From the NCBI GenBank assembly GCA_000961765.1, contig LADT01000081.1:1-34038 (forward strand): 34,038 nt of DNA. The letters run 5' to 3'. This DNA is from Clostridiaceae bacterium BRH_c20a. GTDB lineage: Bacteria > Bacillota > Peptococcia > Peptococcales > BICA1-8. Under the pieces are notes generated by a model. It was not told the origin of the DNA and made no database searches. It was given only the letters and a program-made list of their open reading frames with translations. Below are positions 13,778 to 28,330 of the stretch, piece after piece. The position numbers and the translations under genes were made by a program. How positions within the stretch are numbered: position 1 is the stretch's first letter; the number at the start of each line of letters is the position of its first letter.

Positions 13778-15088
13778 TTAATTAGTATTTAGAATAATAA
13801 AATTATCGTTAAGATTTTCTATTGCCTTATCCAGTATATTTTTTATGATTTTCCCCGACTCACTGTTTATTAACACTAACTCATTTTTATCTGCCAGGCT
13901 GCCATATATATATTTGCTGTTAGGTATTACTACTATATCCTGTAATGAATAATCCAGTTGAATCTCTCTTTTATTATTATCTTTGAAATTATATTCAATA
14001 ATTCCATTGCCTTCCTTATTTAACACTAAGATTTTATCTAAAATAGAGTCATAGCTATAGTCTCTGCTGAAATATATTTCTTTGATAACTTGTAGATCAA
14101 CAGAACTTAATATTTTTAAGGTTTTATCCTCATCCGTAACAAATAGATATTTTCCATCTGTACTTTTATTAATATCTGTAATTTTCTTATTACCTAAAGA
14201 CATACTTTTATCTAACATAAAACTCTCAAAATTTATTATTTTTATTTCATCTTCTTCACTAACAAACAATTGATTGCCTATCACCTCTATATTACTTGCA
14301 GACTTTATTAAATCCTTATAGGATAAAATTGTTTCTCCGTTTTCTAAGTTTATTACCAAAATGTTATCCCCGTTCTCACTGATAGCAAATAAAAATTTTT
14401 CTAACTCAAAATACACAATATTTTTTAAGGAAGGTAATGTTTTAATTGATTTTGAATTTATCCTAAAGTCTTCATTTAAAGTAATATTATCCAAAACGCC
14501 ATTTTCTTTATCATAGATTAGCCAGTTGTTATTATTGATTTTTAGAATATTATTTATAGAAGCTGAATATCCTAATTTCTTTTCACCTTGATTTGTTAAT
14601 AGCCATGAATCCCCTTTAATATCGTTTACTAAAATCCCAATTTGAGACGGAAATAAAAATTTATTTAGTTTATTAAGGGACCAGCTTATCTTCTCATTTT
14701 TACCGCCGGCTAACCCCGTTATATTTAAAGAGAGTTCTTTACCTTTTTGGAGAGTCTCTTTATCTAACTCCGCTACTACTTCTATCACTGGATGGTGTTC
14801 CGATTTACGAAGGTATTTATACTCTACAATCTTAAACTCTTCTTCATCTATCTCAGTACTAATTATTTCTTTCCAATTATTCTCAGTCAGATCTCCAGCA
14901 TGAGTTGTAAAGGATAGTTCAAACCTTAAATTATTATCCTGGTACTTTGTAGGTGATGCCTTAATTTGAATATCCTTTATTGTAATTGTCTCTGAAAATT
15001 TAGGAACTAATATTTTTTCTTGGTCCTGTGCACATCCGGTAATTAATAAAATTAATATTACCAGTATAAGCATTAAAATTTTTTTCAA
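13778..15088 (-). CDS. Lipoprotein with Ig-like and beta-propeller-like regions
   Basis: About 436 residues from a TTG start behind GAGGTGAC. The lipoprotein signal (KKILMLILVILILLITGCAQ) places it on the outer face of the membrane. An Ig-like region follows (about 30-130: ITIKDIQIKASPTKYQ ... ISWSLNK). The remainder consists of repeated four-strand blades such as DGKYLFVTDEDKTLKILSS and NSKYIYGSLADKNELVLIN, typical of YncE/WD40-like propellers. No catalytic motif. The frame stays open 56 codons further upstream through 60-bp DNA repeats, which I exclude because they form intergenic repeats. It is downstream of copZ on the same strand, but a copper role is not shown. Confidence 0.72.
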   Translation of the reverse strand: MKKILMLILVILILLITGCAQDQEKILVPKFSETITIKDIQIKASPTKYQDNNLRFELSFTTHAGDLTENNWKEIISTEIDEEEFKIVEYKYLRKSEHHPVIEVVAELDKETLQKGKELSLNITGLAGGKNEKISWSLNKLNKFLFPSQIGILVNDIKGDSWLLTNQGEKKLGYSASINNILKINNNNWLIYDKENGVLDNITLNEDFRINSKSIKTLPSLKNIVYFELEKFLFAISENGDNILVINLENGETILSYKDLIKSASNIEVIGNQLFVSEEDEIKIINFESFMLDKSMSLGNKKITDINKSTDGKYLFVTDEDKTLKILSSVDLQVIKEIYFSRDYSYDSILDKILVLNKEGNGIIEYNFKDNNKREIQLDYSLQDIVVIPNSKYIYGSLADKNELVLINSESGKIIKNILDKAIENLNDNFIILNTN

Positions 15089-15120
15089 TACTGTCACCTC
15101 TAAATGATGAATATAATGAA

Positions 15121-15254
15121 AGGAGACACACCTCTCAGGTGAGCTATGCTTCGCTGCTGAGGAATGTCCCCAACGAATAAAGGAGACACACCTCTCAGGT
15201 GAGCTATGCTTCGCTACTGAGGAATGTCCCCAACGAATAAAGGAGACACACCTC
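15121..15254. repeat. 60-bp tandem repeat, two copies plus a partial third
   Basis: Units at 15121-15180 and 15181-15240 differ at one base (G/A), and 15241-15254 begins a third. Each contains a CTCAG/CTGAG dyad and the string GAATGTCCCCAACG. They look like an intergenic REP-type element. One reading frame is open through the array and joins the lipoprotein frame. Confidence 0.9.
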
Positions 15255-15256
15255 AT

Positions 15257-22164: not shown

Positions 22165-22379
22165 TAGTGCACCTCCGAGGTTATTATATCGTTTTCACTT
22201 ATAAATTGCTTTAATGCCTTGATTCTGGCCTCGCTTGCTTGAACTCCAGATTTTGCTAAAGTTAAAAATTCATCATCTTTAATTAGGGTCTGGGTAGCTT
22301 TTGCTTTAGCGACTGAATTGGTCTCCATTTGCAATAACTCACGAATTTGAAGCATTTCAGCAGTTGTTATTTGGCTCAT
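22164..22379 (-). CDS. Small helical protein coupled to the coat gene
   Basis: 71 residues, all-helical by composition (TTAEMLQIRELLQMETNSVA ... ARIKALKQFISEND). AGGAGG lies 6-7 nt upstream of the ATG. Its stop overlaps the CotF-like start, so it probably works with that protein. It may itself be a short relative of the Coat_F fold. No other motif was seen. Confidence 0.75.
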   Translation of the reverse strand: MSQITTAEMLQIRELLQMETNSVAKAKATQTLIKDDEFLTLAKSGVQASEARIKALKQFISENDIITSEVH

Positions 22380-22445
22380 ATGTCATTCCTCCTAGCTTTT
22401 TTATTATTATTTGTTAAAAATATTTTATTATTCTCCATAATAAAA

Positions 22446-22474
22446 AAATAAGAGAAGGGCCTTGCGGCCCTTCT
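22446..22474 (-). terminator. Terminator of the 56-aa gene
   Basis: A perfect 9-bp stem AGAAGGGCC/GGCCCTTCT with loop TTGC, followed by CTTATTTTTTT on the minus strand. The gene's stop codon is within the first arm. Confidence 0.9.
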
Positions 22475-22643
22475 ATAACTCCTTCTTAATACTGCTTTCA
22501 CCATCCTGCATTGCAGTTATAGTATCCACAGGATCTTTTACAGACTCCATTCTTTTACCATCTCTTAGTTCCTTATCAATTTTTTTCTCTTTTTTTATCT
22601 GGTTTAAAGCCTTTCCTTGGTCCATTTGAATTTTATCCTTCAT
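22473..22643 (-). CDS. Small charged protein, unknown
   Basis: 56 residues starting MKDKIQMDQGKALNQIKKEK and ending SSIKKEL. AAGGGGGG lies 7 nt upstream of the ATG and the terminator overlaps the stop. It is highly charged, with no membrane segment or Cys. It was missed by size-limited ORF calling but is well supported by its signals. The function was not recognised. Confidence 0.7.
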   Translation of the reverse strand: MKDKIQMDQGKALNQIKKEKKIDKELRDGKRMESVKDPVDTITAMQDGESSIKKEL

Positions 22644-22742
22644 AAAATAACCCCCCTTAAGTTATATAGGTATGGTATATTTTTTGTATCTAAGGGGTTA
22701 AATATTCAAATTTAAAGGAAACTAAAAACGGTAGAAATAAAT

Positions 22743-22919
22743 CTAGATAATACATGTCTCCATTATTAAGTGGTGTTCAAATATTTGCAGTTCCCATCCC
22801 TTACTTCTTTTTTCCTGTTCATAAATGTAGGATTCCGCATCTTTTTTTCTGATAAATATCCGATCTAAGGAAACAACTCCATTAGTATCTATCAGCTTAA
22901 CTACAAAAACCTTCAACAT
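22743..22919 (-). CDS. Small protein, paralog A of a divergent pair
   Basis: 58 residues, ATG behind ATAGGAGG. The core VVKLIDTNGVVSLDRIF, YEQEKRSKGWELQIFE is nearly the same as that of the + strand gene at 23365, showing a duplicated small-protein family. It has no membrane segment and predicted strands at both ends of a helix (DAESYIYEQEKRSKG). No known family was recognised. The two genes point away from each other across a 445-bp AT-rich region with a long palindrome. Confidence 0.8.
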   Translation of the reverse strand: MLKVFVVKLIDTNGVVSLDRIFIRKKDAESYIYEQEKRSKGWELQIFEHHLIMETCII

Positions 22920-23364
22920 AAATGTACCTCCTATCTTTTTCGTAGGATATTAGAACTTTAATTATTTTTTAGTTTAGCTATAACAGTAATATTTATATAA
23001 TGTTTATATAATCTTTATATATATTTTATACGAAAAATTTTTATTTTTCTATATTATTCTGAATTTTTTATTTACTTTTATATAATTATTACATGGTTAT
23101 ATAATAAATTTTTTTTATAAGTCTGTTATTAATGTTAATTCAATCTTGAATTAACATTAATAACGTTTTTAGTAATCATAGTAATCAATAACTTTTATGA
23201 AAGAAAAGTAAAAAATATGCAGGAAGCTATTATAGAATACACGAAATTTTTATATACTATGTTATAAGACATTAATTTTAAAAGTTAAGTAAAACAACAT
23301 AACAAATACAATAAAAGCTTATAAGCTTTGAATCGGAGTAAAATAAAAAACCAGGAGGTGAATT
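22920..23364. other. Extremely AT-rich divergent control region
   Basis: No gene was found. The region holds TTTATATAAT-like repeats (22990-23030), long T tracts, and one perfect palindrome (23125-23164). It must contain the promoters of both paralogous small genes. A/T-tract phasing suggests curved or easily melted DNA. Confidence 0.6.
23125..23164. promoter_or_regulatory. Perfect palindrome, 19-bp arms, 2-bp centre
   Basis: GTTATTAATGTTAATTCAA (23125-23143) is repeated exactly in inverted orientation at 23146-23164. GTTTTT follows on the + strand. It could be a large operator between the divergent genes, a cruciform-forming site, or a terminator for an unseen + strand transcript. Confidence 0.75.
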
Positions 23365-23535
23365 ATGAAAAAATATGTAGTAAAGATTGTAGATACAAAT
23401 GGTGTTGTATCAGACGACAGGATATTTTCTAACAGGGACGAAGCTGAAATATATAGGTTTGAACAAGAGAAGAAAAGCAAAGGATGGGAGCTCCATATTT
23501 TTGAATATCCTGTCATAAATGCTAATATGTTTTGA
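23365..23535 (+). CDS. Small protein, paralog B of a divergent pair
   Basis: 56 residues, ATG 5 nt behind AGGAGGTG. The core VVKIVDTNGVVSDDRIF, FEQEKKSKGWELHIFE matches paralog A over nearly its whole length; only the extreme ends differ. An orphan terminator hairpin follows 65 bp downstream. The strong conservation of the KGWEL.IFE block against an otherwise free background indicates selection on the protein. The function is unknown. Confidence 0.8.
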   Translation: MKKYVVKIVDTNGVVSDDRIFSNRDEAEIYRFEQEKKSKGWELHIFEYPVINANMF

Positions 23536-23601
23536 GTAAATGTAATAACAAGGGCCGAAAGGTAAGCGCAATTGTTTGAAATATTAGTTAATTAATTTTT
23601 G

Positions 23602-23635
23602 AAAATCCAGTATATATTTACTGGATTTTTTTATT
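23602..23635 (+). terminator. Terminator after paralog B
   Basis: An 11-bp stem AAAATCCAGTA/TACTGGATTTT (23602-23612 with 23619-23629), followed by T-rich DNA. Confidence 0.9.
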
Positions 23636-23734
23636 TTTATATAATACGGCAGGACCAACTAATTGTTTAAACTCTTTATAATTTAGGTAATTATATTTAA
23701 AATAGAAATATAATTTAACAGGAGGTTGACGTAT

Positions 23735-24127
23735 ATGATTAAATGGAAAGATGATTATAAAATTGGCGTACCACAAATTGATGAACAGCATGAAAAACTT
23801 TTTGAGATTTGTGATAGAGCCTATGCACTTTTGAAAAATAAAATTTACCTTGATAAGTATGACAGAATCATCCAAATATTAGATGAATTAAAAGATTATA
23901 CAATATATCATTTCAAATTTGAAGAAGAATACATGCAAAAGATTGGTTATAAAAAACTATTATCTCAAAAAGTTTCTCATAATGATTTTATTGAAAAAAT
24001 TAACAATATAGATCTAAAAATAGTTGATGAAAAACAGGATATTGCAATAATGGAAGTTTTAGATTTCGTACTAAAATGGATTGAATATCATATCTTAAAT
24101 GAAGATAAGAAAATCTCAACAATATAG
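23735..24127 (+). CDS. Bacteriohemerythrin with one altered iron ligand
   Basis: 130 residues, single hemerythrin domain: a four-helix bundle with a non-heme diiron site that binds oxygen. Ligands in order: His19 (IDEQHEKLF), His59 and Glu63 (YHFKFEE), His82 (VSHNDF), His119 and Asp124 (YHILNED). The expected first His of the HxxxH pair is Gln78 (LLSQKVSH), at exactly the canonical spacing of 15 residues after Glu63. So one of seven ligands is replaced. ATG 9 nt behind AGGAGG; a TTG nine bases earlier is in frame but less likely. Monocistronic, with terminators on both sides. Confidence 0.93.
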   Translation: MIKWKDDYKIGVPQIDEQHEKLFEICDRAYALLKNKIYLDKYDRIIQILDELKDYTIYHFKFEEEYMQKIGYKKLLSQKVSHNDFIEKINNIDLKIVDEKQDIAIMEVLDFVLKWIEYHILNEDKKISTI

Positions 24128-24203
24128 AAATTGTAATCCATTACCTATAAATATCTTCTAAAATATAATTGTATTAAAGTTGACCAGCCCTATATTTACA
24201 CTA

Positions 24204-24242
24204 AAAAGAGGAGAGGAACTAATTTCGTTCCTCTCCTCTTTT
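24204..24242. terminator. Bidirectional terminator, 16-bp stem
   Basis: A perfect 16-bp stem (24204-24219 with 24227-24242, loop 7), A-rich on the left and T-rich on the right, serves the convergent hemerythrin and gamma-glutamyltransferase-like genes. The latter's stop codon touches the stem. Confidence 0.92.
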
Positions 24243-25759
24243 TAATATCCACCGGCTGAACCTGGGAATCTATTATCAACTTCCGGGTAATAGCTATCCT
24301 CAATCACCTGGATGGCCGTAGTAGAACCATAGAAATGCTCTAAAGACAAATTTTCCAAGGAGTATTTATCTGTCATAAGTTTAAGCAGTTGTAAATCCCA
24401 TGCTCCTTCTTCAACCCAAAGAGCACTGCCCTCATAATGAATTCTTGGTGCATCCAAGGCTTCTTTTAGTGTTTTATTTAACTCTATTATCTGAATAATT
24501 ACAGCTGCAACAATAGTAATTATTCTTCTCGAACCTGGGGTGCCAATCGCTAAAAATGGCCTGCCATTTTTTAGAGCAAGGGTTGGGGTCATATTTGATA
24601 AATTAGAACGGCTTGGCTGTGGTGCATTAGGATGCAGAGGATCTGTACTAAATTGAGACATCCCACAATTGAGTACTATCCCCGTTCCCGGAACTGTTAG
24701 ACCTGAACCAAACCAGAGTTGACCATTGGTTTGTGTTAGTGATACCATATTTCCTTCTTGGTCTACTGTACATAGATGGGTAGTATGACCTATATCCTCC
24801 GACTTATTAAAATAGGTACTATATTCACCCCTTTTTATCTTTTTAGCAGCTTTTTTGCAATATTCTTCATTTATTAAGTGTAAAATTTCAGCCTGGTTAA
24901 CTGTTCTTTTTTCTAATACTTTAAACCGATCTTCGAAGGCTACCTGCATAACATGATACATAGCATCAAGCTGTTCTAGTTCCGTAAGCTCTTTTAATTC
25001 TATATTTTCAATGATTTTCAATATCTGCGCCATTGTGATGCCGCCTGAATTAAACAAAGGGAAATAAATGTCATAGCCATGATATGTAATATTGCCAGGC
25101 GTCTCAATTTTAACCTCATAGTTAATTAGATCCTCTTTTGTTAATATACCCTTTCCTTTTTTGATAAGGGCTAAAAGAGATTCAGCAATTTCACCTTGAT
25201 AAAATACTTCTTCACCCTGTTCTTGAATTTTTTTTAAAGTTTTGGAATAATCGGGTAGTTTTAAGATATCTCCTTCTTTAACATTGCCAACCTGAAATAC
25301 TTTTTTAGTTTCGGAGTCTAGGTGATCTTCATTTATTGCTCGGTATAGAGCAGAATTTATTCTAAATCCGTCTTCAGCTAATAGCCTGCTTGGTTCAATA
25401 CACTTACTCAAGGGTAGCTTGCCATATTTTTCTGAAATGGTGCTTAAGCCTTTTAGTACCGTCGGAATGCTTACCGCTTTATGACCCACTGTATTAGAAC
25501 TATTTATAAACATATCAGGACTACTATTTTGTGGAGCTTGAGGACCAAAATTAACAACTAGGACCTCTTTTCTTTCTTTGAGGTATATTGTTGCATAACC
25601 ACCTAAACCTCCTATACCGGAATTTTGGGGGTCGACGACACTTAAAGCAAAAGCAGTAGCTATTGCAGCATCGACGGCGTTCCCACCTAATTTTAGAATT
25701 GAAATACCTGCTTCTGTTGCTAGTTCATGGGCACTTGATACTGCGCCATTTTTATACAC
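24242..25759 (-). CDS. Gamma-glutamyltransferase-family N-terminal-nucleophile hydrolase, altered specificity
   Basis: About 505 residues. The family self-cleaves before a Thr that becomes the nucleophile; that site is present (GHTTHLCTVDQEGN). GGNAVDAAIATAFAL and VDPQNSGIGGLGG are family blocks. Residues that hold the glutamyl group in E. coli enzyme are changed: the MDDF motif is MSQF (Asp433 equivalent is Gln), RPLSSM is SNLSNM, and PGGSRI is PGSRRI. No signal peptide, so the enzyme is cytoplasmic rather than exported. These changes argue for another amide substrate rather than glutathione. The GTG at 25759 has GGGAG at suitable spacing; 25768 is the alternative. Monocistronic. Confidence 0.88.
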   Translation of the reverse strand: MYKNGAVSSAHELATEAGISILKLGGNAVDAAIATAFALSVVDPQNSGIGGLGGYATIYLKERKEVLVVNFGPQAPQNSSPDMFINSSNTVGHKAVSIPTVLKGLSTISEKYGKLPLSKCIEPSRLLAEDGFRINSALYRAINEDHLDSETKKVFQVGNVKEGDILKLPDYSKTLKKIQEQGEEVFYQGEIAESLLALIKKGKGILTKEDLINYEVKIETPGNITYHGYDIYFPLFNSGGITMAQILKIIENIELKELTELEQLDAMYHVMQVAFEDRFKVLEKRTVNQAEILHLINEEYCKKAAKKIKRGEYSTYFNKSEDIGHTTHLCTVDQEGNMVSLTQTNGQLWFGSGLTVPGTGIVLNCGMSQFSTDPLHPNAPQPSRSNLSNMTPTLALKNGRPFLAIGTPGSRRIITIVAAVIIQIIELNKTLKEALDAPRIHYEGSALWVEEGAWDLQLLKLMTDKYSLENLSLEHFYGSTTAIQVIEDSYYPEVDNRFPGSAGGY

Positions 25760-25826
25760 AAAATACACTCCCTAACTTTATTCAATACCATATTATTCGT
25801 TACCAAATATTATTTTCCTATTTAAG

Positions 25827-25863
25827 TATAAAAAATAAAACCCTCGATGAATCATAGGGTTTT
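25827..25863 (-). terminator. Terminator of signal peptidase gene
   Basis: AAAACCCT/AGGGTTTT (25837-25844 with 25856-25863) is followed by TATTTTTTA on the minus strand and overlaps the stop codon. Confidence 0.85.
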
Positions 25864-26443
25864 AAAGTGTAAATATTAATTTACCTAGTACATTTTCAAT
25901 AGGAACACTACCTATTATTCTGCTATCTGCACTATGATTTCTATTATCACCTAAGACATAAATATGTCTTTCTGGAATAACTACTTTATAATTAGGTGTA
26001 TACATTTCTTCTTTAATGTACTTTTCTTCTAAAAGTTCTCCATTTCTGTATATCCTTCCATCTTTAAATTCGATAACATCTCCGGACCTACCGATTACTC
26101 TTTTTATCCAATATTTATCTTCTGGAATTTGTTTAAATAAGAGTGAGGAGATTTTATTATATTTAAAGGTAAAAACCAGGTCATCTTTTAAAGTATGTTT
26201 TTTCTTAACCTGACTGTCAATGATAACTATCTCCTCATAGTCTGGCTCTATATCAAAGGTGTTCAGGATTTTCGACATAACCACCAAATCGCCTTCTTGA
26301 AGGGTAGGTTCCATAGAGGAGCCGAAAACATTACTGGGCTGAAGTATAAAAAGATTAATAATTACAGCTATCACTAGGGCTAGAGCAACTGTACTAAGAG
26401 CCTCAGATAGAAAACTAAATAATTTCAATGATGATCGCCTCAT
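25862..26443 (-). CDS. lepB: Signal peptidase I
   Basis: 193 residues, one N-terminal membrane anchor (about 15-38). It removes signal peptides from secreted proteins on the outer face of the membrane. The catalytic Ser lies in FGSSMEPTLQEGD and the general-base Lys in YWIKRVIGRSGDVIE. The conserved boxes VLGDNRNHSADSR and GSVPIENVLGKL are also present. This is the usual compact Gram-positive type. The ATG lacks a clear Shine-Dalgarno site, unusual in this window. Monocistronic. Confidence 0.95.
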   Translation of the reverse strand: MRRSSLKLFSFLSEALSTVALALVIAVIINLFILQPSNVFGSSMEPTLQEGDLVVMSKILNTFDIEPDYEEIVIIDSQVKKKHTLKDDLVFTFKYNKISSLLFKQIPEDKYWIKRVIGRSGDVIEFKDGRIYRNGELLEEKYIKEEMYTPNYKVVIPERHIYVLGDNRNHSADSRIIGSVPIENVLGKLIFTL

Positions 26444-26532
26444 AATCTTTATTTATTTATAAACATAATATATCAATTATTACTTATTGAATAGAGTTAA
26501 ATTTTAGCTATCGAAATGACAATATTTTTATC

Positions 26533-26724
26533 CTAATAATATATCCGGGTAGAGTTACTGCAATTATTGCAGGTAATATATATTTCACTATTGTATATTT
26601 CGTTCTCATCTAATTCCATGTTTATCTCAATAAGGGATTCATCAACAACTCCACAATTCTGTCCCTTTACTATTAACGCTTCTTCATGACAATTCTGGCA
26701 AATTAATTTAAAGTCAGTGCTCAT
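26533..26724 (-). CDS. Small protein with two CxxC knuckles
   Basis: 63 residues from the ATG behind AAGGAGGTGG. CQNC near the N-terminus and CNNC near the C-terminus probably bind one zinc, framing an acidic middle (ESLIEINMELDENEIYNS). A third Cys (GQNCGV) lies between. No known family was recognised. Monocistronic, between signal peptidase and the 46-residue gene. Confidence 0.7.
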   Translation of the reverse strand: MSTDFKLICQNCHEEALIVKGQNCGVVDESLIEINMELDENEIYNSEIYITCNNCSNSTRIYY

Positions 26725-26839
26725 AAATACCACCTCCTTTTGCAACTCTTCTTCGCCATAACTTAAAAATTACCTTTTCAAAATTTTCAACAAATTTCAA
26801 CAAGAAAGACCTCCGTTTTATTAGCTCCATTACTTAAAG

Positions 26840-26871
26840 TACAAAAAAACCAGCACAAGGCTGGCTGGTTT
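26840..26871 (-). terminator. Terminator of the lipid-operon transcript
   Basis: AAACCAGC/GCTGGTTT with a 9-nt loop, followed by seven T on the minus strand, directly after the 46-residue gene. Confidence 0.88.
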
Positions 26872-26894
26872 ATAAAGGGTTTGTATTAAGTTAA

Positions 26895-27035
26895 CTACTT
26901 CTTGATTAAGCTTTCTGCTGATAACTCCAAAAGGCTTACAGCCTTTTGGATAAAATGATCTCTTTTTTCAGGGTCCGCTTCCTGTAATTCTTTTTCAAGT
27001 TTATCCATAATAGCAATTGTCATATCAAGTAACAT
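26895..27035 (-). CDS. 46-residue helical peptide, unknown
   Basis: MLLDMTIAIMDKLEKELQEA ... LELSAESLIKK: a single amphipathic helical hairpin by composition. GGGGTGAT lies 3-4 nt upstream of the ATG. It lies 64 bp after the thioredoxin-fold gene and just before a terminator, so it is the probable last gene of the operon. The coding sequence includes a 9-bp dyad CCAAAAGGC/GCCTTTTGG. Confidence 0.65.
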   Translation of the reverse strand: MLLDMTIAIMDKLEKELQEADPEKRDHFIQKAVSLLELSAESLIKK

Positions 27036-27099
27036 AATATCACCCCACTTAGCTATGTTACCCTTAGTATAGCCCCTAAGTGTTTTTTAATTCCTGGGA

Positions 27100-27387
27100 T
27101 TAGAGAACTTCTTCAATATAGTTTTCAATATCTTCTATGGTTGCTTTACCCTCAACGGATACAATATGCCCATTTAAAATAAATAGTGGGTAATTCTTTA
27201 GGTTTTGGTAATCAATATCCATGTGTTGTGACAATTGGTCCATTTTATTGCCCTCATACACCTCGATAATCATCTGGGGATATTTTTCTCGGAGACTATT
27301 CAAAAATTGAGCTAATATATCTGCATCACTATTATACCGAGGGTCTTCATTTTCATAAAGAAATACTTCCATCCGTAAATCTTGCAT
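27100..27387 (-). CDS. Thioredoxin-fold protein without cysteines
   Basis: 95 residues. Strand-helix-strand order MEVFLYENEDP, ILAQFLNSLREKYP, MIIEVYEG, then NYPLFILNGHIVSVEGKATI with a cis-Pro-like YP and final helix resembles the thioredoxin/glutaredoxin fold. No Cys is present at all, so it cannot be a redox enzyme. GGGGTGAT lies 5 nt before the ATG. It is 70 bp downstream of the radical SAM gene and probably in the same operon. Confidence 0.6.
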   Translation of the reverse strand: MQDLRMEVFLYENEDPRYNSDADILAQFLNSLREKYPQMIIEVYEGNKMDQLSQHMDIDYQNLKNYPLFILNGHIVSVEGKATIEDIENYIEEVL

Positions 27388-27457
27388 CTATATCACCCCA
27401 ATTAGATAATATTTCCTTTGTATCATTTCACGCTATCAAAAATAATATTCAATAAAC

Positions 27458-28330
27458 TTATAATCCACGCCATCCCTCAGGGCGGAAAACTTTATCTCCT
27501 ACCTTTTTTGCATCATTAAGAATACTCAAAAGCATTTCTTTATCTTGATTTAAAGTTCCTTTTAAAGCTAGATAATTCGAAGCATGGTTACTTCTAAACA
27601 CACAATTTCTTAAATCCAAATTATGAATAAGTCCGGATAATTCATCAATAATTTCCATTGGTTCTAATAATAAGAATTCTCCCCTTCTCACTTGACTAGC
27701 TAAGGGAGTAATATCTTCAACCATCAGGGTCAAGGCTCCTAAATATTCTGGTCCAATCTCATTTATAACTCTAGCCGTCTCTTGGGCATGTTCATGCCTT
27801 AGTACTCTTCCACCTAATCCCAAAATAATAGTACTTGATAATGCAAAGCCAGCTTTCCTTGCCTTCTGACCTGCTTCTATCATTTCCTGGGCTGTAACAC
27901 CTTTATTTATTAGCTTTAAGACTTCTTCGCTTCCACTTTCAACCCCTAAATAGAGCATAGTAATCCCACTAGCTCGTAGCTCCTTAAGCTCTGTTTCACT
28001 TTTCTCCAGAATGTCCCTAGGACCCGCATAAGCAGTAACCCTTTCTAAATTCGGAAAATCATTATATATTTTTTTTACAATTGCCTTAAGTAACTTTGAA
28101 TCTATTGCTAGAGCATTACCGTCTGCTAAAAAAATCCGGCGAGCCATAGGGTAATAGTCTTTAGCCCAACTGATGTGCTTTTCAATCTCCTGCTCAGATA
28201 AAATACGAAATTTCTTTGTCTTGTACATAGAACAAAAGGTGCATTTATTATGGGAGCAGCCCTGGGTAATTTGCAGAATTAGGCTTTCTGCCTCACTAGG
28301 CGGGCGATATAAAGGCATGTCATATGGCAT
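27458..28330 (-). CDS. Radical SAM protein (Elp3-like fold), unknown substrate
   Basis: About 290 residues. The iron-sulfur cluster ligands lie in GCSHNKCTFCSMY (Cx4CxxC spacing, known in this subfamily). SAM-binding elements follow: FLADGNALAI (GGE-like strand), LYLGVESGSEEVL and TIILGLGG. The start is the ATG with AGGGAG about 10 nt upstream. It overlaps the end of the phosphatidylserine decarboxylase gene by 11 bp, indicating coupling. The substrate is unknown. Confidence 0.88.
   Translation of the reverse strand: MPYDMPLYRPPSEAESLILQITQGCSHNKCTFCSMYKTKKFRILSEQEIEKHISWAKDYYPMARRIFLADGNALAIDSKLLKAIVKKIYNDFPNLERVTAYAGPRDILEKSETELKELRASGITMLYLGVESGSEEVLKLINKGVTAQEMIEAGQKARKAGFALSSTIILGLGGRVLRHEHAQETARVINEIGPEYLGALTLMVEDITPLASQVRRGEFLLLEPMEIIDELSGLIHNLDLRNCVFRSNHASNYLALKGTLNQDKEMLLSILNDAKKVGDKVFRPEGWRGL

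Follow-up and report, generated by a model that had tools for sequence, protein, structure and literature searches.

Two small-protein genes in the window, the whole stretch of 34,038 nucleotides analysed here from Clostridiaceae bacterium BRH_c20a, are with near certainty genuine members of a conserved family that is held under strong purifying selection. The reading favoured here, to which a probability of about 0.38 is given as a whole, is that the proteins of this conserved family adopt a DUF7336-like mini-fold and act as adaptors or inhibitors that dock on a partner through a D-T-N hairpin. The genes and the region between them are:

22743..22919, minus strand: P0001, gene for a 58-aa small protein, whose orthologue in the UViG relative is syntenic
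23365..23535, plus strand: P0002, gene for a 56-aa small protein, nearest to the single copy of genome G004
22920..23364: AT-rich intergenic sequence separating the start codons, of which 23015-23118, upstream of P0001, is 79% conserved in the relative

A first-pass annotation had described these as divergent small genes with strong ribosome sites, and both open reading frames were found where and in the orientation it had placed them, with GGAGGT directly 5' of each ATG and the start codons 445 bp apart. The common core that it had read in the proteins holds for D-T-N-G-V-V-S-x-D-R-I-F and KGWELxIFE, but the V before D-T-N occurs only in P0002, P0001 having I at this position. Its description of the pair as nearly identical was too strong: the BLASTP match (E 2e-23), while far beyond chance, reflects 63% identity over 51 aa, and full-length identity is 57%.

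Homologues exist outside the strain, as single copies in seven further genomes of the phylum and on one metagenomic contig, and a whole-genome search revealed a third copy in the genome of origin on another contig (G000:C36, about 76497-76664). The family is present in 4 of the 46 genomes of the class. In a phylum sample of 398 genomes, eight were listed and five gave convincing matches, while those in G107, G170 and G389 (E 0.002-0.01) were rejected as chance, two lying within long open frames and one containing internal stops. In the taxonomic family of G417, each of the four genomes sampled from genus g256 has a single copy of the gene, and none turned up in the remaining 42 sampled genomes. 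A named record with a homologue is the Clostridia MAG contig JAAXZE010000133.1, probably from the same genome as the G004 copy. No family member was found in collections of phages and plasmids. In a tree, the copies of the taxonomic family to which the window belongs split from those of G037 and g256, in an alignment too short for every branch.

The single copies of other genomes stand in unrelated surroundings, as judged from product names read from translations. Neighbouring genes encode a TRAP transporter in G003, rhomboid-like and glutamate-synthase-like proteins in G004, a LytTR-type regulator and acetyl-CoA synthetase in G037, and a multihaem cytochrome in G417 and G430; no conserved neighbour or operon partner was found in the loci examined. 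Glutamate-synthase-like genes lie 3.3 kb from the third copy (L009:13003-14430, plus strand) and 0.3 kb from the G004 copy (L010:7764-9170, minus strand), perhaps a coincidence, as none was seen at the other loci.

The lone match in IMG/VR, IMGVR_UViG_3300031485_000187, carries the 88%-identical orthologue of P0001. Because its flanking genes (for a 95-aa protein, a 70-aa protein and a signal peptidase) are syntenic with window positions 25830-27431 at 84% identity, this copy is placed in host DNA, adjoining phage genes. Past the 95-aa gene and short of the radical-SAM-like gene at 27458, homology ends (about 27431 in the window and about 6187 in the UViG contig, L022), beyond which the relative carries phage-like genes; the junction is a probable prophage integration site. 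In L022, P0001 is kept behind the signal peptidase gene, and the counterparts of 23119-23227 and of the following block are missing:

23264..25829 (~2.6 kb): block absent from the syntenic relative, comprising P0002 and the next two genes
23726-24127, plus strand: hemerythrin-domain gene
24242-25768, minus strand: gamma-glutamyltransferase-like gene

The first-pass annotation had argued for selection from conservation concentrated in the protein, and dN/dS ratios calculated by the Nei-Gojobori method bear this out as purifying selection, lying between 0.04 and 0.10 and far from the value near 1 that would have told against it. The ratio was 0.09 for P0001 and its UViG orthologue, 0.04 for G417 and G379 within one other genus (residue 9 onward), and 0.10 for P0002 and the G004 copy, where dS is near saturation; for P0001 and P0002 themselves, dN is 0.34 with synonymous sites saturated. 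In the comparison of P0001 with its orthologue, third codon positions hold 16 of the 22 differences. When the same base changes were placed randomly, they caused a mean of 15 amino-acid changes, against 7 in the real pair; only 2 of 20,000 simulations gave so few, and the frame stayed open in only 15% of runs. Together with the homologues, the dN/dS values rule out chance or non-coding open reading frames.

AlphaFold2 models of P0001 and P0002, of moderate confidence and built from a four-sequence alignment, predict a beta-beta-alpha-beta arrangement for both (pLDDT 78 and pTM 0.60 for P0001; pLDDT 73 and pTM 0.53 for P0002). Foldseek searches of a viral library returned numerous small phage proteins, most of them uncharacterised and many with probability 1.00 and TM 0.6-0.85, at E values of 0.01-0.1 and in no case below 0.001; a mini-fold this small can arise independently. 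No credible relative of solved structure was found by fold or by sequence. Ten residues are invariant in all 11 sequences (V6, K7, D10, T11, N12, V14, D18, F21, A27 and Y30). The polar ones lie mostly on the hairpin between strands 1 and 2 of the predicted models (where strand 1 ends, within the turn and on strand 2), as would be expected of a docking site.

The claim that no known family could be recognised stands for P0001 and P0002 themselves, which gave no worthwhile Pfam or NCBIfam match and no match to DUF7336 (Pfam PF24024; curated cut-off 25 bits), but not for the family as a whole. The G037 homologue lies exactly at the cut-off (25.0 bits, E 1.7e-5), and four further members fall below it (10-15 bits where shown), so that 5 of the 11 match. 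The alignments shown in detail share one register, from residue 1 to about 50, and reversed control sequences gave no match. Alignment of the family against DUF7336 with hhalign returned a probability of 9% and an E value of 0.0034, from only 11 and 7 sequences, and Foldseek matched proteins named DUF7336 with probabilities of 0.98-1.00, but with E values of 0.03-0.09 and TM of 0.54-0.74. The family is probably a remote branch of a DUF7336-like mini-fold, which is very common among small phage proteins. No paper on DUF7336 turned up in the literature library searched, none of the 11 members matched PADLOC anti-phage defence models at E<=1, and a match of P0001 to NifT (E 0.1) was dismissed as chance.

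Each protein is predicted to form one beta-beta-alpha-beta unit, about 50 residues long. The sequence shows no evident signal peptide or membrane segment and no obvious set of catalytic residues, and no linked partner was seen; for these reasons a soluble cytosolic protein-binding module, serving as adaptor or inhibitor, is the best guess at function, offered tentatively and at somewhat less than even odds. The invariant V-K-x-x-D-T-N-x-V hairpin may dock on a partner whose gene lies elsewhere in the genome, as would fit the lack of a conserved neighbour at the loci examined, and each paralogue might have its own partner or expression condition.

An unlikely but plausible origin is a phage early-gene mini-protein, captured and domesticated so that it now serves the host in some role or prevents superinfection. 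The fold occurs chiefly among phage proteins in the viral library, and the gene is spread patchily across the phylum in shifting genomic positions. However, part of this bias towards phages comes from the library, the structures compared being viral, and 50,697 phage records contained no close relative; matches to PHROGs were weak, the sole IMG/VR match lies in host DNA adjoining a prophage, and the lack of a PADLOC match also counts against such a role. Four weak phage matches of the G037 member (E 0.8-8) were not accepted as evidence of phage residence.

A role as a free-standing immunity protein or antidote to a polymorphic (Rhs-type) toxin, as suggested by DUF7336 genes that stand behind Rhs genes, is improbable. 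Two Pseudomonas phages and a Moraxella plasmid have a DUF7336 gene behind an Rhs gene, L043 and L046 have one behind a similar toxin-like end, and the third copy in the genome of origin shares a 19-kb stretch with a 2036-aa RHS-repeat gene and toxin-like fragments. However, that copy lies on the strand opposite to the RHS gene and not behind it, and no toxin-like gene was seen beside the window copies or at the other loci examined, none of which, the third copy included, has a same-strand toxin gene directly upstream. Furthermore, the small gene is genus-wide in g256 and under strong constraint, unlike most immunity genes, and the link to DUF7336 is remote. Near the third copy, L009:1429-9281 (minus strand) is a degraded RHS locus consisting of the 2036-aa gene, a separate 189-aa N-terminal-like open reading frame and short toxin-like and transposase-like fragments. 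DUF7336 genes directly behind Rhs or toxin-like C-terminal ends were observed at L048, L052, L053, L046 and L043, which belong to phages, plasmids and a single genome from the phylum, and their products are probable immunity proteins. The C-terminal ends from the Pseudomonas phage, Methylorubrum and G192 have in common a GPG(S/T)-x-x-N-x-(I/L)-K-K-like motif; Pfam gave no match for the two ends that were scanned.

It is a long shot that the family is a hitherto undescribed regulatory small protein of Bacillota with the fold of a phage mini-protein, whose D-T-N hairpin would bind a single conserved core enzyme in these anaerobes; were this so, phage and host would bind host machinery with the same fold.

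The significance that the first-pass annotation implied for the divergent layout is not supported. The surroundings of the genes contain the following further elements:

23125..23164: perfect 40-bp palindrome with 19-bp arms and a 2-bp spacer, terminator-like on the plus strand
23601..23630, plus strand: terminator-like hairpin 3' of P0002
22474-22453, minus strand: terminator-like hairpin downstream of P0001, past another 56-aa open reading frame

The palindrome has an RNA fold z-score of -6.5 and lies inside 23119-23227, the stretch missing from L022; it was rejected as a shared regulatory element, being single in the genome and missing from the relative. Rfam gave nothing at 22300-24200 except a sub-threshold miRNA-hairpin match to it. 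A by-eye look upstream of the genes for a conserved promoter of sporulation type found a promoter region common only to P0001 and its orthologue. The other 56-aa open reading frame (22473-22643, minus strand), which is charged, begins MKDKIQMDQGKALNQ and lacks a Pfam match, is retained in the relative only as a match to the last few codons before a shared terminator, which suggests a deletion there. Elsewhere in the window, a predicted open reading frame (13778-15256, minus strand) begins at its N-terminal end with RCVSFIRWGHSS(V/A)AKHSSPE repeated in tandem; this may be a DNA repeat included in the translation, with the lipoprotein-like protein truly starting downstream of it.

The divergent pairing looks incidental, and P0001 and P0002 look like old paralogues; nothing supports a co-evolved pair. 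A recent inverted duplication is disfavoured, as P0002 shares 70% identity with the G004 copy and only 57% with P0001; the alignment is too short for a tree to resolve the branching. That the two proteins form a heterodimer or the genes share a divergent control region, as the first-pass annotation implied, is most improbable: the divergent geometry and the perfect palindrome between the genes speak for it, but the pairing is seen in this genome only, the relative has a syntenic P0001 with neither P0002 nor the palindrome stretch, the third copy lacks the palindrome, and P0002 resembles the single copy of another genus more closely than it does P0001.

The analysis turns an unrecognised pair of open reading frames into a defined family with ten invariant residues and a predicted fold, and genus g256, with its single-copy gene in all four sampled genomes, offers a ready test set. 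Should a partner be identified, the family would offer a way into the function of this mini-fold, which abounds in phages and for which no function was found. As things stand, it adds one to the conserved small proteins whose role is unassigned.

Among known systems, PHROG 10284 (unknown function, 61 positions) is matched weakly in full register by 7 of the 11 members (best E 0.0016), but not significantly after library correction; it was rejected as the parent family, its matches to members being weak and its model giving only chance matches in the phylum genomes. Small uncharacterised phage proteins in BFVD, such as A0A8S5VI81 and A0A6J5M700, have the same predicted fold as the window proteins, with TM (query) of 0.77-0.81 and rmsd of 1.3-1.5, but are only 23-24% identical to them. 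DUF7336 resembles the family in its length of about 60 aa, its N-terminal K-V-Y-[VI]-V strand, its acidic A-E-x-Y helix and its C-terminal E-Y strand. Unlike DUF7336, the family has no member 3' of an Rhs gene and carries its own invariant D-T-N-x-V-x-[ST]-x-D motif. The family is not a new kind of system; it is strictly conserved, little noticed and unnamed in the libraries searched.
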